From a virus: 23,846 bases of DNA. Each line of letters opens with the position of its first letter. Positions within the stretch are counted from its first letter, which is position 1. The notes beneath the pieces are model-generated. The model did not search any database. It had not been told where the DNA came from and saw only the letters and a program-made list of their open reading frames with translations. Positions 5,221 through 23,846 of the stretch are shown one piece after another. Location: positions 1 to 23,846 of IMG/VR virus record IMGVR_UViG_3300044638_000388. One strand, written 5' to 3'. The position numbers and the translations under genes were made by a program.

Positions 5221-5991
5221 ATGTCTGCCACCGTTCTGTCCGGCACAGCCGGGGCGCTCTATTACAAACCAGCTGGCACCATTGCCACCTTTGCCGAATC
5301 TGGCGTTAATGCCACCACTGACGTGATCACCGTCTCGCCGTTCCTTGGCTTCAAGGTTGGCGACCCGGTGCAGTTTAGTGTGATCAACGTCAACACTGGC
5401 GCTGCGGGCTCTGGCACCCTGCCTGCCGGGATCTCTGCTGCTACTACCTACTACGTCATCAGCTACACCGCCAGCACTGGTGCCATGCAGGTATCTGCCA
5501 CGCTTGGTGGCTCTACCGTGGCGATCACCGATGATGGCACGGCTGTAACGCCAAACATCTTTCAGGTGGCATACGACAGCTTCGTGGCAGTAGCCGAGGT
5601 GCGCGAGTGGTCGTTTGAAGTGACCCGCGAAGAGATCGACGTCACCACCATCGGCCAGGCCGCTGGTCAGACCGTGCCATTCCGCCGGTATATCAGCGGC
5701 TTTGCTGATGGTTCAGGCTCGGCCACCATCTACACCACCAGCGAAGACACCAGCATCGCCAGCCGCTTGGTTGCTGATGTGCTCCAGCGGGAGCAGGAGG
5801 GCGCCACAATGAAGCTGTACATCGATCGCGTGGTGAGCGGCGGCAGCGTCAGCGATACGCTCAGCCGTTCGATCACGGTGCCTGTCATCCTGACGGCTGC
5901 CAACTTCACGGTCAACCCTGACGACGGCCAGTCAATCGAAGTGTCGTTCCGCCCGAGCGACGCGCCTACGTTTGATCTGGTTAAGAGCTGA
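5221..5991 (+). CDS. Major tail tube protein with an extra internal domain
   Basis: A 256-residue tail tube protein. The tube core is seen in the N-terminus (residues 1-24, GTAGALYYKPAGT) and from residue 118 on (VREWSFEVTREEIDVTTIGQ, RRYISGFADGSGSATIYT, and a final SIEVSFRPSDAPTF). Residues about 25-115 look like an inserted beta domain (KVGDPVQFS, GTLPAGISAATTYYVISYTA, GAMQVSATLGGSTVAITDDG), a repeat type found in phage tail and surface proteins; I expect it on the outside of the tube. No Shine-Dalgarno is obvious before ATG 5221. A strong hairpin follows the gene at 6005-6031, consistent with a highly expressed gene. Confidence 0.8.
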   Translation: MSATVLSGTAGALYYKPAGTIATFAESGVNATTDVITVSPFLGFKVGDPVQFSVINVNTGAAGSGTLPAGISAATTYYVISYTASTGAMQVSATLGGSTVAITDDGTAVTPNIFQVAYDSFVAVAEVREWSFEVTREEIDVTTIGQAAGQTVPFRRYISGFADGSGSATIYTTSEDTSIASRLVADVLQREQEGATMKLYIDRVVSGGSVSDTLSRSITVPVILTAANFTVNPDDGQSIEVSFRPSDAPTFDLVKS

Positions 5992-6066: not shown

Positions 6067-6405
6067 ATGGCTCGCGCACTTGATCGGCTCAAGAAAGCTG
6101 CTCACCTGGTTCCCATCAAGAAAGTCGTCACGCTGAGCGATGGCAGTGAGTTTGAGTTTTACTGCACTCCCCTTACGATGGCCGAGAGGGAGAAGGCGCA
6201 GAAGGATGCTGGAAGCGACGAGGCGATTGCCTTTGCACTGCAGCTGCTGATTCAGAAGGCAAAAGATGATGCCGGTCAGCCGTTGTTCAGACCCGGCGAA
6301 ATCGCTGAACTGAAGAATGAGGTGCGTGATGAAGACTTGCAGATCATGATGCTGGCTGTCATCACAGACAAGAACGATGTAACCGAGGCAGAAGCGGGAA
6401 AGTAG
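6067..6405 (+). CDS. Tail assembly chaperone, short form (lambda gpG-like)
   Basis: A 112-residue cytoplasmic chaperone expected to hold the tape measure protein during tail assembly. It is Lys/Glu-rich with a small beta N-terminal part (KKVVTLSDGSEFEFYCTPLT) and helices after residue 38 (MAEREKAQKD, EDLQIMMLAVITDKN). Size and position just between tail tube and tape measure match lambda G and its relatives. The last codons are GCG GGA AAG before TAG 6403-6405, and GGGAAAG at 6396-6402 is the slippery heptamer used by lambda to make the longer G-T fusion. No clear Shine-Dalgarno precedes ATG 6067; the start was chosen as the first ATG after the intergenic hairpin. Confidence 0.85.
   Translation: MARALDRLKKAAHLVPIKKVVTLSDGSEFEFYCTPLTMAEREKAQKDAGSDEAIAFALQLLIQKAKDDAGQPLFRPGEIAELKNEVRDEDLQIMMLAVITDKNDVTEAEAGK
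6396..6402 (+). promoter_or_regulatory. Programmed -1 ribosomal frameshift site GGGAAAG
   Basis: The zero-frame codons are GGA AAG; slipping back one base re-pairs both tRNAs on GGG AAA, the X-XXY-YYZ pattern, and the heptamer is identical to the lambda G/T site. The short-form stop follows immediately (TAG 6403-6405). An internal Shine-Dalgarno-like GAGG at 6385-6388 lies seven bases upstream, a known stimulator of -1 shifting in bacteria. The -1 frame stays open to 6587. I did not find a decisive downstream pseudoknot by eye. Confidence 0.85.
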
Positions 6406-6587
6406 CCGCTGAGTTAAAGCGTGACTTGTATCTAAGGCTCATGCTTCGCCTGGCTCGTGAGCTGGGCTATACACTCAGCGAATTAAGCCAGCGCATTACG
6501 AAGGAAGAGCTGCAGATCTGGGCAGCCCTATTTGAGATCGAAACGCAAGAGCAAGAGGAAGCGGCTAGGAAGAATCGCCGCAGGTAG
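6402..6587 (+). CDS. Tail assembly chaperone extension (lambda gpT-like), made by -1 frameshift
   Basis: This is the -1 frame extension of the preceding gene. After slippage it adds 61 residues beginning VAAELKRDLYLRLMLR and ending in a Glu/Arg-rich tail (EIETQEQEEAARKNRRR) at TAG 6585-6587, giving a fusion of about 173 residues. The sequence is helical with the 'AREL G(Y/W)TL-EL' pattern typical of the T part of siphovirus chaperones, which recruits tube subunits while the G part binds the tape measure. It has no own Shine-Dalgarno or suitable start at its beginning, supporting frameshift expression. It ends 26 bases before the tape measure start. Confidence 0.8.
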   Translation, partial: VAAELKRDLYLRLMLRLARELGYTLSELSQRITKEELQIWAALFEIETQEQEEAARKNRRR

Positions 6588-6613
6588 ACTGGCCTCATGC
6601 GAGGTTGTCGGCC

Positions 6614-9025
6614 ATGTCTGTAGTTGCCAATATCGCCATCAATGTTGATGGCAAGCAAGCCAAGACGATCCTTGACGAGATCAAGCGCAAGGTAGAGGCC
6701 ATGAATGGCACTTTCGGCAATGTGCCGGGTGCCACGCAGAAGGTGGGCGGTCTTACCAGCGCTATCGCAGGCATGATCCCGCAGCTTGCCATTGCGGCTA
6801 CAACAATGGAGGTGCTGCGCCAGAGCGTATCAACGGCATTTGAGCGCGGCGGCGCTGAGCAGAGATTGCGCAACCTCACATCATCAACTGGTGAGTTCAA
6901 TGCTGCGATTGCATCCGCAACTGGAGCATCAGCCAAGTTCGGCATTTCGCAGACAGAGGCCACGGTGGCATTGGCCGACGTCTATGGCCGATTAAAAGGT
7001 GTTGGCTTTGGCCTTAAGGAGACTACCCAGATCTATGAAGGATTTAATGTAGCCGCCAAGCAGTCTGGAATCAGCGGCGCTGATGCTGCTGGCGTCTTCT
7101 TCCAGCTCAGCCAGGCCCTAGGCAAAGGCAAATTGAACGGTGATGAGTTTGTCAGTGTCTCTGAGCGCATGCCTCAGTTGCTTGATCTGATCGCTCAGTC
7201 AACAGGCCGCTCGCGTGGCGAGTTGCAGCAGATGGCCCAGGAAGGCAAGATCACAAGCGATGTCCTTTATAGAGCATTGGCAACTGCAGCAGAGGGCTCA
7301 GGTGACTTAAATGCAAAGTTGACAGAACAGCAGCGCACCATGGGCAAGTTGACCCAAGTTACAGATCAGCTAAAAGCCCAGATAGGCAATGTATTTGCGC
7401 CGGTTGTTGTTGCTGGTGCGAAAGGCTTGGCTGTCATCGGTGAGAAGCTATCCGAATGGTGGGGATATCTTGGATCGCAAGTGTTCCCCAGGCTGCTTAA
7501 GGCGCTCAAGCCAGCCATTGATGAGTTCAGGAAGCTATGGACAGCGATCCCATGGAGCACCATCCTCGGATACCTGCAAGGATCAATCATCCTGGCGCTG
7601 AATAGGATCATCGGTGTAGTCAGGGTGATGGCGCCTATTACTGCGTTCATTGTCCGCAAGTTCCTTGAGCTTTCAAACAATCCGGTCTTTAAGTTCTTTA
7701 CTGAACAGGCGGCAAAGCTACTTGAAAAAATGGGTGTCACCAACAATGCAGTAGATACATTCACTGCCAAGCAGGCTCAGGCACGCAATCAAGTCGCACA
7801 GACTGTTAATGCTTATAACTCGATGCCGCCCAAGATCGAGGCAGCAGCCGAAAAGAATAAAGGACTGATTGCAGCTACCAATAGCGTGCTGAATAATCTG
7901 CGTGCTCAGCAGACTTCACTCGATGCGCACGTTGCATCTCTTGAAAGGGGCGCCAGCGTTACATCGGCAAGATTTGCGGCAGAAAAGGCGATCAATGATC
8001 TCAGAGGGGTTCAACTAGAGCGTGAGTATCAGTTTGCCAAAACTGCGCAGCAACGACTCAACATTGCAGTTGCGATATTCAGGCAACAAGCGCAGGCTGC
8101 GGTTATCGAGTACCGCCAGGCACTAGACAACATTCGCCTGGAGAAAATCAAAGGCGAGTTGCAGCTTCAATCTGCCAGGATCAAATACGACCAAATCCGC
8201 GCAGAAGGATTGCTTCAGATCCTGCTAGCAAAGAACGTCGAGGAAGAGACCGCCAAACGCCAGAAACTAGGGGAAGCACTGCAAGCGCAAAATGCGGTCA
8301 TAGACTCTACTGCCGATCAAGTTGCGGCGAATAAAGAGCTAGTCAGGTATCAGGCAATCACAGCAAAGGCGCAATTCAACGCGAAGATCCTTACCGCTCA
8401 AACCGCGCTAGAGCAGAAGCTAATCAGCGATCAGATTGGCTTGACGCAGGTTTCAGCACTAGCGGTGTCTCAAAGCTTGGCGAACGCTTATTCGTCATCG
8501 CAGTTTATGGCTCAGGCCACAAGTAGCATCGCCATCAACAGCGATAAATCCGCAGGCAATTTCATCAGGGTAGCTACCAACGCTGAAATGGCTGCCACCA
8601 AAATCAGGGAAGCAGCTGATGCTCAAGAACGACTGAACAGATTAAGAGGGCAAGCTACAGCGCCGACAGTCAGAGGAAAGACCCCGGTCAAGCGATTCGC
8701 CCAAGGTGGCTTCGTAAGCCGCCCGACGCTCGGTCTTATCGGTGAAGCTGGCGAATCCGAATATATCGTGCCTGAATCCAAGGCAGCAGGATTCGTGTCA
8801 AATTACCTGTCTGGAGTGCGCGGGGCGTCCGCAGTTGCAGCAGCACCTACCGGATCGACGGGTGGTAGCACTACGATCAACGTAACTACCGGCCCGGTGA
8901 TGGAGTTCGACGGTCAGCGCTACGTCACCGTGACCGACATGGAACGCGCTATGCGACTGACCGCTGAAGGCGTGATCGGCCGGTTGCGTACACCATCTGC
9001 ACGCATCGCGCTGGGCATGGCCTGA
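6614..9025 (+). CDS. Tape measure protein
   Basis: An 803-residue tail tape measure protein, which sets tail length and takes part in DNA delivery. I chose ATG 6614 because GAGG at 6601-6604 is nine bases upstream; the TTG three codons earlier has no space for a ribosome site. The tape-measure domain is clear at about residues 65-230 (GGAEQRLRNLTSSTGEFN, LSQALGKGKLNGDEFVSVSE, then MPQLLDLIAQSTGRS). Hydrophobic helices occur near residues 310-355, long helical/coiled-coil segments from about 380 to 640, and a Gly/Arg C-terminal region (RFAQGGFVSRPTLGLIGEAG) typical of these proteins. At about 1.5 angstrom per residue the tail would be near 120 nm. The next gene starts inside the stop (TGATG). 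Confidence 0.9.
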   Translation: MSVVANIAINVDGKQAKTILDEIKRKVEAMNGTFGNVPGATQKVGGLTSAIAGMIPQLAIAATTMEVLRQSVSTAFERGGAEQRLRNLTSSTGEFNAAIASATGASAKFGISQTEATVALADVYGRLKGVGFGLKETTQIYEGFNVAAKQSGISGADAAGVFFQLSQALGKGKLNGDEFVSVSERMPQLLDLIAQSTGRSRGELQQMAQEGKITSDVLYRALATAAEGSGDLNAKLTEQQRTMGKLTQVTDQLKAQIGNVFAPVVVAGAKGLAVIGEKLSEWWGYLGSQVFPRLLKALKPAIDEFRKLWTAIPWSTILGYLQGSIILALNRIIGVVRVMAPITAFIVRKFLELSNNPVFKFFTEQAAKLLEKMGVTNNAVDTFTAKQAQARNQVAQTVNAYNSMPPKIEAAAEKNKGLIAATNSVLNNLRAQQTSLDAHVASLERGASVTSARFAAEKAINDLRGVQLEREYQFAKTAQQRLNIAVAIFRQQAQAAVIEYRQALDNIRLEKIKGELQLQSARIKYDQIRAEGLLQILLAKNVEEETAKRQKLGEALQAQNAVIDSTADQVAANKELVRYQAITAKAQFNAKILTAQTALEQKLISDQIGLTQVSALAVSQSLANAYSSSQFMAQATSSIAINSDKSAGNFIRVATNAEMAATKIREAADAQERLNRLRGQATAPTVRGKTPVKRFAQGGFVSRPTLGLIGEAGESEYIVPESKAAGFVSNYLSGVRGASAVAAAPTGSTGGSTTINVTTGPVMEFDGQRYVTVTDMERAMRLTAEGVIGRLRTPSARIALGMA

Positions 9026-14968: not shown

Positions 14969-15225
14969 CTGAGCCAACGCACGGCGAGATCCTTCGCGCT
15001 ATCGGCGTGCTGGAAGGCCAGCTCAAGCAGCTGCTGGATGCCGCCATCTCCGACAAGACCGAGCGGAGCGGATTAGGCGTCCGCGTTGGCCGACTGGAGA
15101 CGCGCATGGCGCAGGTGGTGATCCTCGCCGTTGTTGCCGCCATGCTCAGTCCTGTCATCTGGTCTGAGATCAAAAGCGCATTCAGCTACCGGCAGCCAGT
15201 ACCGCAGCACCTGCAAAGACCATGA
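14965..15225 (+). CDS. Holin-like protein (coiled coil plus one membrane segment)
   Basis: An 86-residue protein from GTG 14965. It has an N-terminal helical stretch (HGEILRAIGVLEGQLKQLLD, then VGRLETRMA), a single membrane segment at about residues 49-66 (AQVVILAVVAAMLSPVIW) and a short polar tail. This coiled-coil/TM layout resembles XhlA-type and other small phage holins or holin partners. It lies between a tiny hydrophobic protein and the endolysin, overlapping the latter by four bases, so a role in releasing the endolysin to the cell wall is the best reading. The topology would be C-terminus out if the basic/Glu-rich N-terminus is cytoplasmic. Confidence 0.6.
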   Translation: MTEPTHGEILRAIGVLEGQLKQLLDAAISDKTERSGLGVRVGRLETRMAQVVILAVVAAMLSPVIWSEIKSAFSYRQPVPQHLQRP

Positions 15226-16382
15226 CGCAGCTCAGGCTGGTTGACCTGTTTCGGTACTTCAAGGGGCTGCCGCATCAGCTGGCGGCGATCAGTGAGCTAG
15301 AAGCTGCAATCGGTCCGCGCCTTCTGAGCCGCGATCAGCCATGGTTCAAGACATGGAGCACGGCCGGTGTGCAAACCGATCTGGCCGATGCGATTCAGAT
15401 CATTAAGGAGTTTGAAGGCTGTCACCTGAGCGCCTATCCCGATCCGCTCAGCGGCGGTGATCCGTGGACGATCGGTTACGGCACCACTCGATTCCCGGAT
15501 GGCAGCGTTGTGCGGCGCGGCGACAAGATCAACGTCATCGAGGCTGACATGCTGCTCCGCTTAGAGGTGGACCGCATCGCAGACCGCCTGCGTGCAATCC
15601 CGCACTGGGCAAGCATGGCTGATCCGCAGCGCTGCGCGTTGATCAGCTTTGCCTACAACCTCGGCGCTGGGTTCTACGGCAGCACTGGGTTTGACACCAT
15701 CAGCGCAGCATTGCGCGATAAGGATTGGGCTGCCGTGCCAGCAGCCATGCTGCTCTACCGCAACCCTGGCAGTGCCGTTGAGGCTGGCCTGCTGCGCCGA
15801 CGTAAGGCTGAGGGCGCACTCTGGCAGAAGGGTATCCCGCAACTGCAACAGCAGGGCATCCTGCTGCGTGTGCCGTATGAGGCGCAGAACGACAACGCCA
15901 GCGGCACCGGCTACCGCGAATGCTTCAGCAGCAGCGCTGCCATGGTGGCCAAGTTCTACGGCAAGGTGAGCGGCGACGATGCCTACAACAAGATCCGCGC
16001 CAAGTACGGCGACACCACCGACGCGCAAGCGCAGATCAAGGCGCTGCAATCCTTAGGACTTACAGCGCGGCTGCGCACCAACTGCGGCCCTGCCGTGATC
16101 GACACCGAACTGCAGGCTGGTCGCCCCGTGATGGTCGGCTGGTTGCATAAGGGACCTGTCGGCGCACCTACTGGCGGCGGCCATTGGTCCGTAATCATTG
16201 GCGCTACCAGTGATGCCTACATCCACAACGACCCCAACGGCGAGGCGGACATGGTAAATGGCGGCTATGTCAACCACACCAAAGGTGCAGGCATTGCCTA
16301 CAGCCGCAAGAATTGGCTGCGCCGCTGGGAGGTAGATGGTCCCGGCACCGGCTGGGCAATGCTTGTAAGCCACGCCCCTTAG
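15222..16382 (+). CDS. Two-domain endolysin: GH24 lysozyme plus C39-like cysteine peptidase
   Basis: A 386-residue enzyme predicted to digest host peptidoglycan at lysis. Residues about 55-200 form a T4-type lysozyme (GH24): IIKEFEG with Glu65, AYPD with Asp74 nine residues on as in T4 (E11/D20), and WTIGYGTT around Thr83. From about 212 on there is a C39-like (C39_2) peptidase: LLRVPYEAQND, Cys234 in RECFSSS, His321 in GGHWSVIIGA and Asp337 in HNDPNGE form a plausible catalytic triad. The N-terminal 54 residues (LFRYFKGLPHQLAA) look like a helical pre-domain without signal peptide, so export likely needs the holin. Cutting both glycan and peptide is unusual for one phage protein. ATGA-coupled to the upstream gene. 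Confidence 0.85.
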   Translation: MTQLRLVDLFRYFKGLPHQLAAISELEAAIGPRLLSRDQPWFKTWSTAGVQTDLADAIQIIKEFEGCHLSAYPDPLSGGDPWTIGYGTTRFPDGSVVRRGDKINVIEADMLLRLEVDRIADRLRAIPHWASMADPQRCALISFAYNLGAGFYGSTGFDTISAALRDKDWAAVPAAMLLYRNPGSAVEAGLLRRRKAEGALWQKGIPQLQQQGILLRVPYEAQNDNASGTGYRECFSSSAAMVAKFYGKVSGDDAYNKIRAKYGDTTDAQAQIKALQSLGLTARLRTNCGPAVIDTELQAGRPVMVGWLHKGPVGAPTGGGHWSVIIGATSDAYIHNDPNGEADMVNGGYVNHTKGAGIAYSRKNWLRRWEVDGPGTGWAMLVSHAP

Positions 16383-17734: not shown

Positions 17735-18051
17735 CATGGGGTGATTGGATGATGGTCAAATGGACCATTGAAGAAGAACTGCGCATCGAAGCGCAATCAC
17801 GCAGCGCATTGATTCATCCAGACGATAGGGATGTGCGATCATTGTGTGCTTCGCTGATCAAGCAAAATGCCTACTACACGCGACTCATTCAGCAAGCAAC
17901 TGGTCACATCGCGCATCTTGAGACATCAGCGTTTCTCGGTGAGCATCAAACGAAGCCGCCGCATCGACCGGTCATGGATCTGGCCAACCGCGCTGCGCGT
18001 TATACCAAGCTCTTCAGCAATCTTGCCTTGCGTCTTTTTCGGCGCTCCTAA
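17731..18051 (+). CDS. Small hypothetical protein, 3' end antisense to the sigma gene
   Basis: A 106-residue frame from ATG 17731 (ATGA overlap with the HNH stop); ATG 17749 or 17752, just downstream of GGGGTG, is an alternative start. The N-terminal 60 residues (VKWTIEEELRIEAQSRSALI; LIKQNAYYTRLIQQATGHIA) look like a genuine helical protein of a small cyanophage type with an acidic start. The last 42 residues lie over the opposite-strand codons of sigma region 4 and are Arg-rich, perhaps shaped by that constraint. No function known. The overlap of 126 bases is convergent. Confidence 0.55.
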   Translation: MTWGDWMMVKWTIEEELRIEAQSRSALIHPDDRDVRSLCASLIKQNAYYTRLIQQATGHIAHLETSAFLGEHQTKPPHRPVMDLANRAARYTKLFSNLALRLFRRS

Positions 18052-18795
18052 TCCGTGGTAGCTGGCGACAATATCGCGATCCCGGTCAGCAAGGAATGAT
18101 AGCGCCAGCTCTAGTTGCTCGGTATATTCCACGGATAGCGAATCGTCATAAGGCTGATGATCGTCAACGATCATGTCAACCAATGGCGAGCCATCATCCC
18201 TGACCAGTTGATCTAGGCTGCTGTGCGGTACATTTCGCATGATGTGCGATTGCAGCTCATGCTGACTCATGTTCATCTGCTCAGCGCATTCTGCTGTTGA
18301 CATCGGCCTGCCATGTTGCTGCAGATGCTCACGTTGCATCTTGGCAATCTTGTACGTGGCATCTAGTACATGCTGCGGCACGCGGATCAGGCGCTCCTTG
18401 GTATCAATCGCGCGTGTAATCGACTGACGGATCCACCAGTAGCCGTAGGTGGAGAACTTGTAGCCCTTGGTGCCATCAAATAACTCAACAGCGCGATTCA
18501 AACCGATGGCGCCTTCCTGGATCAGGTCCATCAGTTCAAGACCATTGGACTTCAGCCTGGTCACGTAGTTCTTGGCGATGTGAACTACCAGCCGCAGGTT
18601 GCAGTTCATCATGGTTTCACGCGCACGCTGGCCGCGCTTGATCGCGCGCAGCTCTTCTTTAGTGCGTTCGCCTTCCATGGCTTGCAGTTCGATCATCCGT
18701 CGCACCTGGCGGGATAGCTGGATCTCCTGCTCACCAGTCAGCAGCGGAAACCTGCCGATCTCGGTCAGGTAATCCTTAATGCTGTCAGTGCTCAT
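17926..18795 (-). CDS. Sigma-70 family RNA polymerase sigma factor (cyanobacterial group-2-like)
   Basis: A 289-residue sigma factor predicted to direct host RNA polymerase to phage promoters. Region 1.2 is at about 4-36 (DSIKDYLTEIGRFPLL), region 2 at about 60-133 (CNLRLVVHIAKNYV, LMDLIQEGAIGLNRAVELFD, YKFSTYGYWWIRQSITRAI), region 3 from about 138, the 3.2 finger near 192-212 (SSLDQLVRDDGSPL), and region 4 at about 222-285. The -10 contacts (WWIRQ..T) are kept. In the 4.2 helix, ITRSAVGQI replaces VTRERIRQI of E. coli RpoD, changing positions equal to E585, R586 and R588, while R584 and Q589 stay. It is the last gene of the leftward operon, which suits a middle/late switch. Start is ATGA-coupled. 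Confidence 0.9.
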   Translation of the reverse strand: MSTDSIKDYLTEIGRFPLLTGEQEIQLSRQVRRMIELQAMEGERTKEELRAIKRGQRARETMMNCNLRLVVHIAKNYVTRLKSNGLELMDLIQEGAIGLNRAVELFDGTKGYKFSTYGYWWIRQSITRAIDTKERLIRVPQHVLDATYKIAKMQREHLQQHGRPMSTAECAEQMNMSQHELQSHIMRNVPHSSLDQLVRDDGSPLVDMIVDDHQPYDDSLSVEYTEQLELALSFLADRDRDIVASYHGLGAPKKTQGKIAEELGITRSAVGQIHDRSMRRLRLMLTEKR

Positions 18796-20333: not shown

Positions 20334-20545
20334 GGGTTGATCGGTGTGATGGAGTTGGATTCTTCAAAGGCCAGCACATCAGCCAGCGGGTACTGCACCC
20401 GTGGCGTGCCTGCTGGCGTAGCAAGGCGCGGCATGGTCACATAGCGTGGCCCTGAACCGCGCGCGCGCTGGCCTTTGATCGTGCTCGGCTTGACACCCCA
20501 GCGGGCGGCTAGCTGCTCAGTGGTCAGGTACGGCTCAGTCATCAT
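20330..20545 (-). CDS. Excisionase-like helix-turn-helix protein
   Basis: A 71-residue DNA-binding protein (ATG 20545; TTG 20548 and ATG 20542 are in-frame options). YLTTEQLAARWGVKPSTIKG is a MerR/excisionase-type winged HTH (residues about 6-25), followed by GSGPRYVTMPR and the wing-like PRVQYPLADVLAFEE. Similar proteins are excisionases or small phage repressors. Here it is placed between Bet and SSB, overlapping the Bet stop by 11 bases, so a regulator of this operon or a recombination directionality factor are both possible. Integrase is not visible in the window. Confidence 0.75.
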   Translation of the reverse strand: MMTEPYLTTEQLAARWGVKPSTIKGQRARGSGPRYVTMPRLATPAGTPRVQYPLADVLAFEESNSITPINP

Positions 20546-21293
20546 CAAATGCGCCTAAGTCAGCTGGTACGGTCAGCTCAGCCTCGCGGCTGAGTGCCAG
20601 CTGCATCAGTTGCTCATTCTGCTCATCGCTCAGGTCACCCTTGCGGGCCTCCATGCGTGTGGTCACCTTGGCTAGATCGTCCATGGTCTTGGCCTTGGCG
20701 ATGGCAGCCTTGCCAGCAGCAAACAGCTTGGCATCACCGGCAGGCAATGCAGGCGCTGCAGTAACCGTGACAGGTTGCACCTCGGCCTGCTCCATCTCGT
20801 CGGTGCTGTAGACGCCGCTGAGGTTGGCGGGGAATGCCTTGCGCAGTGCCAGCGCTTCAGAGCATTTGGCAATCATCGCGGCTGGCATCTTGCTCCACAG
20901 GCCCTGGCCGGCGTTGTAATCCGCGAACCGCGCCACGCCCGTGAATGGGTGCGATGAACCCTTGCGCCAGATCGTGGTCTTGGCTGCAGCCGGCGGCTTG
21001 GCGCTGATCCATACATCAGCCCACTGGCCATCATCACCGCACCATTCGGTGTGGCTGCCGTCCAGCTCGCCGGTGCGCTCAGCAATGGCGCGCAAGCCGT
21101 CAATGCCGGCCTGAATGGTCATGCGACCACTACGTCGAATGGCGTAGATCTGCTTTGAGAACGGATCCAAGCCAGTCCGCTGGCAGGCGTAGGCGAAGAG
21201 GCGCAGCTCATCGCTGCTGCAGCCGGGCGCGATGGTGGTAGCGATCAGCTGCGTCTGCTCTGGTGTCCAGAGCGCAAGGGAGCTAGAAGTCAT
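20535..21293 (-). CDS. bet: Bet/RecT-family single-strand annealing protein
   Basis: A 252-residue annealase from ATG 21293. The open frame extends further upstream but that part is antisense-like low-quality sequence over the exonuclease gene. The Bet-type signature is clear: ELRLFAYACQRTGLDPFSKQ, IYAIRRSGRMTIQAGIDGLR, AIAERTGELDGSHTEWCGDD, WSKMPAAMIAKCSEALALRK and AFPANLSGVYSTDEME. It anneals single strands and partners with the exonuclease encoded just upstream (11-base overlap). The C-terminal 70 residues are Ala/Lys-rich and acidic at the end, as in lambda Bet, where they contact SSB or the exonuclease. Confidence 0.9.
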   Translation of the reverse strand: MTSSSLALWTPEQTQLIATTIAPGCSSDELRLFAYACQRTGLDPFSKQIYAIRRSGRMTIQAGIDGLRAIAERTGELDGSHTEWCGDDGQWADVWISAKPPAAAKTTIWRKGSSHPFTGVARFADYNAGQGLWSKMPAAMIAKCSEALALRKAFPANLSGVYSTDEMEQAEVQPVTVTAAPALPAGDAKLFAAGKAAIAKAKTMDDLAKVTTRMEARKGDLSDEQNEQLMQLALSREAELTVPADLGAFDDD

Positions 21294-22065
21294 CGGATGT
21301 GATGGTGTCAGAGGTCTGCAATGCCCACCGCGGCAGGCTGATGGTCTGCGTGCTGTAGCCGGGCCATTCGCTGATCGCGCGGCAGTCGGCGATGGTGTCC
21401 AGGTTCTGCCGCCGCAGCACGATGGCATGATCCATGGCGTCGTTGTCCAGTTCGTAGACGCCAACCGCAAACGGGTAGGTCTTCTCGACTGCGATGAACA
21501 CAAACCGCCGCGCGAAGGTGCCGGCCTGGTAGTGATCGGCCTGTACGTGATATCGCCAGTGCGCCACCGACCTGGCAAAGCCGGCAGGGCTGGCATCGGT
21601 GGTGGTCTTGAGATCTACCAGCGTGTCATTGGTCATCCAGTCCGGGCGGCACTTGCAGCGCAGGCCGCTGATCGTGTCATCCCACCAGAAGGACTGCTCA
21701 GCCTTGCCGGTCTTGAGCAGGGCCGCGGCATCAGGGTGGCTGCGCACGCTGGCGCTCATGGCCATGGCCTGCTCCATGTCGGCGGCTGATACCGGCTCGA
21801 TACCGGCGGCCTCCATCTCAGCCGCAGCAGCCTTGCCTTCCTTGGTGCGGCGATCGGGCGCAATACCGTAGCGCGCGCTTAGCTCGTCAGGCTCCAGCAC
21901 TGCGCAATGCACAAGGGTGCCAAGGCGCATGGCTGCAGTGGGCGGCACCACCGGGCGGTTCGGATCAATGAACCGCTTCCAGTAGTGATAGGGGCTGGCG
22001 GCAACTGCGTGCAGGTGGCTGGCGCTGATCGCCGGATCGGCGTGGTATTCGGCGTTGCTGGTCAT
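21283..22065 (-). CDS. RecE-like 5'-3' exonuclease (PD-(D/E)XK)
   Basis: A 260-residue nuclease. ATG 22065 has a strong GGGAGG seven bases upstream, favouring it over the longer frame. It begins MTSNAEYHADPAISASHLHA, then has AMRLGTLVHCAVLEPDELSA (45-64, the H--LG-L-H motif area), Glu123 in the AEQSFWW segment, Asp142 in CRPDW, and Asp151-Leu-Lys153 in VDLKTTTD as the PD-(D/E)XK catalytic group, followed by HVQADHYQAG (173-182). This matches RecE/exonuclease VIII-type proteins. It would resect double-stranded DNA to provide the 3' tails that Bet coats, in linear replication intermediates. It overlaps both neighbours by a few bases. Confidence 0.85.
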   Translation of the reverse strand: MTSNAEYHADPAISASHLHAVAASPYHYWKRFIDPNRPVVPPTAAMRLGTLVHCAVLEPDELSARYGIAPDRRTKEGKAAAAEMEAAGIEPVSAADMEQAMAMSASVRSHPDAAALLKTGKAEQSFWWDDTISGLRCKCRPDWMTNDTLVDLKTTTDASPAGFARSVAHWRYHVQADHYQAGTFARRFVFIAVEKTYPFAVGVYELDNDAMDHAIVLRRQNLDTIADCRAISEWPGYSTQTISLPRWALQTSDTITSDDF

Positions 22066-22259
22066 GCGTTGGCCTCCCATTCGCCGCACCAATCAGCGTC
22101 CCAAGTGCTTGGCCACAAAGCGATAAGCTCTTTATCGGGAGGGACTGGAGAGTGCGGACGTGGCGCATATCTACGGCAGAAATGCTCGCTGTCTTTTTCA
22201 GTCCCACTCCAATAATTGCAATTCATGCAACATTGATCCTGTCGAGAAGTTTTGATCAT
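22062..22259 (-). CDS. Small Cys-rich, probably zinc-binding protein
   Basis: A 65-residue protein from ATG 22259. It has CMNCNYWSG (Cys11-x2-Cys14), HFCRRYAPRP (Cys28) and a conserved tail with WPSTWDADWCGEW (Cys58). Four cysteines in this spacing and the P(S/T)T-x-x-D-WCGE(W/F) ending match short phage and bacterial proteins that I know as probable zinc-ribbon-like. The role is unknown; such proteins often accompany recombination or replication genes. Its stop and the exonuclease start form an ATGA overlap at 22062-22065. Confidence 0.65.
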   Translation of the reverse strand: MIKTSRQDQCCMNCNYWSGTEKDSEHFCRRYAPRPHSPVPPDKELIALWPSTWDADWCGEWEANA

Positions 22260-22807: not shown

Positions 22808-23134
22808 CCGTGCAGCATCCTCAACGCTGCGCGCCACGCCAGCAATGCCGCCTGCTGCCTGCACCGCCTCCAGCCATTGCCGCTGCTCCGGGCGCAATCG
22901 GCCGCTGGCGCTCTTCACCTCGATGCTGGTGAACACCGCCACCTGCTGACCCACCATGTCCGGTGTGATCGTGCGAGTGGTCCAGCCGATCAGGTCAGCG
23001 CTGCCAACCGCCAGGCCAAACTGCACCGGCCGGCCATGCTGGTCACGCAGCGTGCCAGTGTTATTGCGAAACAGCCTAGTGCTGCCGGTGCTGCAGGTCA
23101 GGCGGATGTGTTGCTGGATCTGTTGCTCGGTCAT
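22781..23134 (-). CDS. VRR-NUC domain nuclease
   Basis: A 117-residue nuclease from ATG 23134, ATGA-coupled to the upstream stop. MTEQQIQQHIRLTCSTGSTR is followed by LFRNNTGTLRDQHGRPVQFG, with Asp47 in AVGSADLIGW, Glu72 and Lys74 in FTSIEVKSASG and Gln84 in RPEQRQWL, the order of a minimal VRR-NUC PD-(D/E)XK fold (D, E-x-K, Q). Stand-alone phage VRR-NUC proteins cleave branched or structured DNA, so resolving replication or recombination junctions before packaging is the likely task. The C-terminal part contains the promoter for downstream genes. Confidence 0.85.
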   Translation of the reverse strand: MTEQQIQQHIRLTCSTGSTRLFRNNTGTLRDQHGRPVQFGLAVGSADLIGWTTRTITPDMVGQQVAVFTSIEVKSASGRLRPEQRQWLEAVQAAGGIAGVARSVEDAARLTGDAQGV

Positions 23135-23846
23135 GTCATGCAATAGCCAGATTCGCAACCGTCTTGCTCGTCAATCCATTCAGGGAACAGGCCCAGCTGG
23201 TCAGGGATGCAGTCAGTCAAGGGGCGGCCGTGGCGAGTGAAATAGCCAGGGTCTTTGCCAAGCGCAACTGACTTGGCGCACAGCAGTGATTCAAGCTCAG
23301 CCGCCTTGGCAAAAAGCTCTGGGTCTTCGCGTTTGCGATGCGTCCAGGCTTCAGTGGTGTGATACGGGCAAAACCAGCAACTACTTTTTGGTGGCCGTGG
23401 CAGGCCTTCAGCTTCAACGATGCGAAGGCACAAGGACCGATCAATGCCAAGGTCAATCAGTGGGTACCCCTTGACGTAGCCATCACTATCACGGGCTGGC
23501 TTGGCGCGATGCGACTCATCTGTGCTTATGCCAACCCCAAGAGTGCAGCCGGGGGCGTTATGCCTGATCCACTTGGCAATCGGTTCAATCTTCCATTTGG
23601 TAGTGCAGTTGCGAAACCCAAGCCCACCGTGCTGGTAGTGAAGCGGAACTGATACGGAAGACGGGTTGCTGGCGCAGTCGTCGTAAAGGTCAACGGGAAG
23701 CCCGCTTCTATTGACCTTGCACACATCCACCCATTCAATGCCGTGTTGTTTGGCGTAGGGCTTCAGCACCAGTCTGATGTAAGCAAGGGTGTGCGGTGAT
23801 TCAGCCTTGTCGCCCACATTGGCGAAGATGAAAGTGCGATACGGTA
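23131..23846 (-). CDS. PAPS-reductase-like (adenine nucleotide alpha hydrolase family) protein, partial
   Basis: The frame is open from the window edge to TGA at 23133-23131, giving at least 238 residues. A GTG at 23817 is only internal, since family-like sequence continues upstream of it (RTFIFANVGDKAESPHTLAY). Other marks are NCTTKWKIEPIAKWIR (a Cys-T-x-x-W-K-I-P-I motif) and KSSCWFCPYHTTEAW with a Cys-x2-Cys pair. The N-terminal PP-loop is outside the window. Phage members of the family may act in sulfur transfer, for example DNA or nucleotide modification as in DndC, but the substrate here cannot be read. It is ATGA-coupled to the VRR-NUC nuclease. Confidence 0.75.
   Translation of the reverse strand, partial: PYRTFIFANVGDKAESPHTLAYIRLVLKPYAKQHGIEWVDVCKVNRSGLPVDLYDDCASNPSSVSVPLHYQHGGLGFRNCTTKWKIEPIAKWIRHNAPGCTLGVGISTDESHRAKPARDSDGYVKGYPLIDLGIDRSLCLRIVEAEGLPRPPKSSCWFCPYHTTEAWTHRKREDPELFAKAAELESLLCAKSVALGKDPGYFTRHGRPLTDCIPDQLGLFPEWIDEQDGCESGYCMT

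Follow-up and report, generated by a model that had tools for sequence, protein, structure and literature searches.

Organization of the locus

The window analyzed here is the complete IMG/VR virus record IMGVR_UViG_3300044638_000388, which is 23846 bases long and has 58% G+C. The features of the locus are listed in Table 1. A G-like open reading frame ends with the codons GCG GGA AAG TAG, and a T-like frame overlaps it in −1. The overlapping frames lie directly 5′ of the tape measure gene, as a frameshift of the lambda G/GT type requires. A preliminary description of this DNA, made from its letters, had placed GGGAAAG in the correct phase with GAGG seven bases upstream, had called the −1 frame open to 6587, and had given the two products 112 and 173 residues. 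These points held. The heptamer reads G GGA AAG, the −1 frame follows a TGA at 6330, is open from 6333 and stops at TAG 6585-6587, and translation of the window, with a −1 slip at GGGAAAG for the G-T fusion, returned both sizes. The heptamer had also been put one codon before the stop of the short form; it is indeed near that stop, but no codon lies between them.

Table 1. Features of the tail chaperone locus in the window
Feature	Position	Strand	Remarks
Probable major tail protein gene	5221..5991	+	Next gene upstream; assigned by position only
G-like ORF	6067..6405	+	Open frame; short product, predicted tail assembly chaperone of 112 residues
GAGG, SD-like presumed stimulator	6385..6388	+	Separated from the heptamer by 7 nt (6389-6395)
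Slippery heptamer G GGA AAG	6396..6402	+	Phase; in-phase heptamer here in 80/80 evaluable loci
TAG stop of the short product	6403..6405	+	Directly abuts GGGAAAG
T-like −1 frame, 61 residues	6402..6587	+	C-terminal part of the 173-residue fusion; 30-sequence alignment, PHROG 337, codon-position pattern
Tape measure protein gene	6605..9025	+	Next gene downstream; Pfam TMP_3 (E 4e-31), many tape-measure PHROGs

The tape measure gene is listed from a TTG at 6605; by inspection, it more likely starts at ATG 6614, which is preceded by GAGG at 6601-6604. The product of the gene upstream of G had no Pfam match and no good PHROG match, and a "major tail protein" is annotated at the corresponding position in S-2L and MED4-184. 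Elsewhere, the window encodes an endolysin-like protein (15222-16382) in which a phage lysozyme domain precedes a peptidase domain of the papain-like or C39-like type. On the minus strand there are a sigma-70 factor of the phage that contains regions 1.2, 2, 3 and 4 (17926-18795), a RecT-like annealing protein adjoining an exonuclease VIII-like protein (20535-21596 and 21283-22092), and a phosphoadenosine phosphosulfate reductase-like protein (23131-23817; PHROG 424, E 9e-22).

The two frames

G matched PHROG 20784, a family of unknown function (E 3e-36), and had no Pfam family match. It is homologous to a protein of S-2L annotated as "putative tail assembly chaperone". Its structure was predicted from a 41-row alignment (pLDDT 79.7), and the top two PDB fold matches were the two chains of the HK97 tail assembly chaperone structure 2ob9 (E 9e-4 and 1.6e-3, TM 0.49 and 0.47, probability 1.00, rmsd 5.3); YqbN came third (E 0.67). 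2ob9 is the solved structure nearest to the predicted fold, although G is only 15% identical to it and the TM score is about 0.5. This moderate match suggests that G has a tail assembly chaperone fold. When PDB chains were searched by sequence, the G profile had no match and T had one weak match, to an unrelated chain.

The second frame matched PHROG 337, "tail protein" (E 9e-6). Among 30 T sequences, aligned over 61 columns, an Asp, the motif LGYT, EE and a Trp were invariant. Changes by codon position in the T frame numbered 2164, 1172 and 3695, third positions being the most variable. T thus appears to be a conserved protein that has no conserved start of its own. The preliminary description expected that gene callers would miss this frame, and no T gene is called in any of the three annotated relatives whose tables were inspected (KBS-S-2A, S-2L and MED4-184).

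The slippery site in close relatives

Taken alone, the heptamer count and the open −1 frame are near what chance gives. GGGAAAG occurs twice in the window on both strands (1.43 expected; two or more in 39 of 100 shuffles), and when the bases of the downstream segment were shuffled 20000 times, a 60-codon open stretch arose 1038 times, or in about 5%. It is the phase and position of the site and its conservation in relatives that raise the pair above chance.

With the 112-residue protein as query, we found 9 phage records and 190 confirmed viral contigs. The close set comprised the window, KBS-S-2A and the best 80 of the 190 contig loci, 82 in all; L026 and L028, in which the ORF runs off the contig, were left out, which gave 80 evaluable loci. 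The more distant phage records of S-2L, AG-345-A17 and MED4-184 stand outside this count; neither AG-345-A17 nor MED4-184 has an XXXYYYN heptamer of this sort. A scan of genome_contigs for cellular relatives gave 90 pattern matches, none of which was confirmed.

An in-phase XXXYYYN heptamer lies 0 or 3 nt 5′ of the G stop in all 80 evaluable loci. The heptamers are AAAAAAC (47), GGGAAAG (23), AAAAAAG (6) and AAAAAAA (4), and the 23 loci with GGGAAAG are close kin, falling together in a single cluster of the 33 obtained at 90% identity. At other in-phase positions of the G ORF, XXXYYYN occurs at 16 of 3453 (33 cluster representatives). The T frame is 58-61 codons long in 55 of the 56 distinct junctions of the close loci. 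The sole exception, L084, has a break within T itself.

Sequences around the site

GAGG occurs at the window's spacing in 43 of the 56 distinct junctions and not in the other 13. At this SD-like place, the Glu codon is GAG in 26 of the 28 clusters that have Glu there, while elsewhere in G, GAG accounts for 147 of 322 Glu codons and for 35 of the 111 that precede a G (none of these counts is corrected for relatedness). This bias points to selection at the codon level for GAGG at a fixed spacing. Of the 62 junctions with CCCAAAA/G sites, which belong to more distant relatives, 49 have GAGG neither at that spacing nor nearby.

A fully stimulated −1 site has an SD-like upstream element at a fixed spacing, which is present here, and a conserved downstream structure, which was not found in 14 close variants and 23 relatives. 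In the window a three-stem fold was predicted downstream (z −1.86; 9 of 200 shuffles were as good). It was rejected as a stimulator: one outer pair is broken in 8 of the 14 close variants, and the 23 relatives have no consensus pairs.

Comparison with lambda and other phages

The slippery site of lambda G/T is G GGA AAG. The window resembles lambda G/GT in this heptamer, in the overlapping G and T frames and in the adjoining tape measure gene, but no sequence match to lambda was observed. We built a G-T tree of 93 clusters from 353 proteins, excluding short or unplaced rows. The window falls in a clade of 32 rows (SH-aLRT 99), the others having AAAAAAC (27), AAAAAAA (3) or AAAAAAG (1). Since its nearest relatives use A AAA AAN, the window's heptamer seems to have arisen separately within this clade, and its match to that of lambda would be convergence and not descent. 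The preliminary description was right that the two heptamers are identical. It also found this surprising for a phage of a distant host; a convergent origin takes much of the surprise away, and so does the nature of the site, because, according to PMC5009743, G_GGA_AAG is highly shift-prone in E. coli and also serves HCTV-5, a haloarchaeal virus, as its G-T site. The host of HCTV-5 is archaeal, and its likeness to the window lies in the heptamer as given in PMC5009743.

Two cyanophages have homologous G proteins and T in −1. KBS-S-2A (G 71% identical) has an in-phase AAAAAAC, and S-2L (G 47% identical) has an in-phase CCCAAAG that lies 45 nt before its G stop; both heptamers differ from the window's, and T is unannotated in both. 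The host of the window's phage can be suggested only from its cultured relatives, which are phages of cyanobacteria.

Proposed shifts in both directions in the wider family

Further scans used AG-345-A17, MED4-184, S-2L, the family alignment and two +1 relatives, and the best 80 loci were kept from each (3 for S-2L). The family set had 488 loci, including the window and the phage records and with some contigs repeated; four ran off the contig, leaving 484. In these, T was located with a T profile built from three clades. It is in −1 in 303 loci and in +1 in 179 (including L084), and it could not be placed in two, L205 and L470, where the stretch ends nearby. In none of the 482 placed loci does T follow in G's own frame. 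The matches between clades indicate that both halves are homologous across the frames: the window clade matched the AG-345-A17 clade at E 4e-20 for G and 5e-13 for T, and MED4-184 at 1e-10 for G and 5e-10 for T.

There are 364 distinct junctions, of which 151 are −1 with a heptamer, 75 are −1 without one, 136 are +1 (including L084) and two are unplaced. Besides L084, all 135 +1 junctions have an in-phase AAA_AG, preceded by ATG, ACC, TTA or TTG; elsewhere in G it is found at 121 of 34042 in-phase positions. In 120 of 124 distinct 120-nt +1 regions, a stop of the T frame stands directly 5′ of the AAA, and thus the shift would occur at or 3′ of that AAA. The AG-345-A17 clade has 56 such regions, and in 44 of them G stops one codon past the AAA, which confines the shift to two codons.

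In the AG-345-A17 clade (L004, L086-L165), all 80 fetched loci have T in +1, and the sequence at the shift reads TTR AAA AG. The codons GAG GCT AAA GCC 5′ of the site are invariant in 22 of 22 clusters, while elsewhere GAG makes up 8 of 102 Glu codons and GCC 5 of 140 Ala codons. By this codon usage, GAG GCT AAA GCC appears to be an element that acts at the RNA level. A hairpin, GGC-UAAA-GCC, could form in it. Two more +1 groups (subsets of L300-L328 and L329-L408, and most of L409-L488) have ATG or ACC AAA AGY, and their G proteins are 64-73% identical to the window's (in a subset of the family loci).

The 75 heptamer-less −1 junctions comprise 67 of the MED4-184 clade and 8 with C CCC AAG. 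In the MED4-184 clade (L005, L166-L245), T is in −1 and the possible shift region has no X XXY YYZ heptamer; A_AAG is our guess at a candidate site. The DNA around the stop in this clade, AAGGAATC[CT]TAA[AG]GGGGGA, is nearly invariant.

The G-T tree requires at least three changes of shift direction, and this number holds if the count is restricted to starred branches. AU tests for separate origins were mixed. On the full tree, neither the grouping of all +1 rows in one clade (p 0.146) nor that of the two nearer +1 groups (p 0.128) was rejected. When the tree was reduced to 58 of 68 rows, without the long-branch clades and with groups named after the first tree had been seen, a single clade of the two nearer +1 groups was rejected (p 0.0146). 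On these trees, two switches of direction are likely and three are possible. A tape measure tree had 10 sign changes and was dropped for counting switches, being mosaic against the G-T tree. This conflict fits an exchange of tape measure genes among these phages.

Discussion

A ribosomal −1 slip that yields two tail-helper proteins is a well-known device of phages. The locus very probably carries such a programmed frameshift, of the lambda G/GT type, at GGGAAAG, and the comparison with relatives supports the window well as a further instance of it. The anatomy of the locus, the phase of the site, the conservation of site and T frame, the chaperone-like predicted fold of G and the position before the tape measure gene all bear directly on this reading. 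Most ribosomes would read the G-like ORF through to the TAG at 6403, yielding the tail assembly chaperone of 112 residues. In a minority, Gly-tRNA on GGA and Lys-tRNA on AAG would move back by one base and pair with GGG and AAA, while GAGG would pair with the 16S rRNA tail and probably promote slippage. The slipped ribosomes would stay in the −1 frame and make the rarer G-T fusion of 173 residues. If the proteins act as in lambda, G may coat the tape measure protein, and in the fusion the T part may recruit the tail tube protein; these binding roles are those that PMC5009743 gives for lambda. What we infer from the locus is that slippage occurs, how often it does, what GAGG contributes and which proteins make contact. 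The junction peptide proposed earlier as evidence of the fusion would call for a protease other than trypsin, which would cleave at the junction lysine (AGK|V).

It is very unlikely that T is made separately from an internal start instead of as part of a fusion. An ATG at 6441 shares the T frame and has a short purine run, AAGG, upstream at 6434-6437, but only 15 of 30 relatives have Met at this residue, the Asp that is invariant in all 30 precedes it, and an internal start leaves the conservation of a heptamer before the stop unaccounted for. The frames might otherwise be joined by slippage of RNA polymerase on the run, and the 6 or 7 A at the site in some relatives would suit this. Polymerase slippage requires longer runs than the window's three G and three A, however, and the runs of relatives with CCCAAAA/G are short as well, which makes such an origin slightly less probable still. 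Least credible of all is that the −1 frame is open by chance, or that a single ORF was split by an error of assembly. The open frame alone would arise by chance at about 5%, and error-like cases such as L084 do occur in the family, but the identical split recurs in 80 of 80 loci from many contigs, and T is out of G's frame in 482 of 484 family loci, the other two being unplaced.

The preliminary description named as evidence against a frameshift any relatives that lack the site while keeping both frames apart. Taken literally, such relatives exist: 135 junctions are +1 with AAA_AG, and 75 are −1 without X XXY YYZ. We keep the ribosomal frameshift, since T stays conserved and out of frame in them, and read these junctions as probable sites of other kinds at the same place. 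The direction of the G-T frameshift is known to differ between phages, and a very likely +1 case is named in PMC5009743; the data of PRFect include 350 forward sites (PMC10885494). In open-licence papers, we found no report on frameshifting in this cyanophage-type tail-chaperone family or on AAA_AG as a +1 site.

On balance, we lean towards a joint reading in which one homologous cyanophage-type chaperone family makes the same fusion by a backward or a forward slip. The forward slip would have at least two origins, perhaps three, all at AAA_AG, where Lys-tRNA would move from AAA to the overlapping AAA. The marine AG-345-A17 clade would combine it with the invariant upstream RNA element GAGGCTAAAGCC, and the MED4-184 clade would shift in −1 without a standard heptamer.

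The annotation of this tail-chaperone family is incomplete, since the annotated relatives inspected have no gene called for the T half, which is a conserved tail protein. The family offers a natural series of sites at one homologous place, with A AAA AAN, G GGA AAN, C CCA AAN, +1 AAA_AG and heptamer-less −1 junctions. Such a series permits a direct test of how a phage retains its fusion protein when the shift changes direction.
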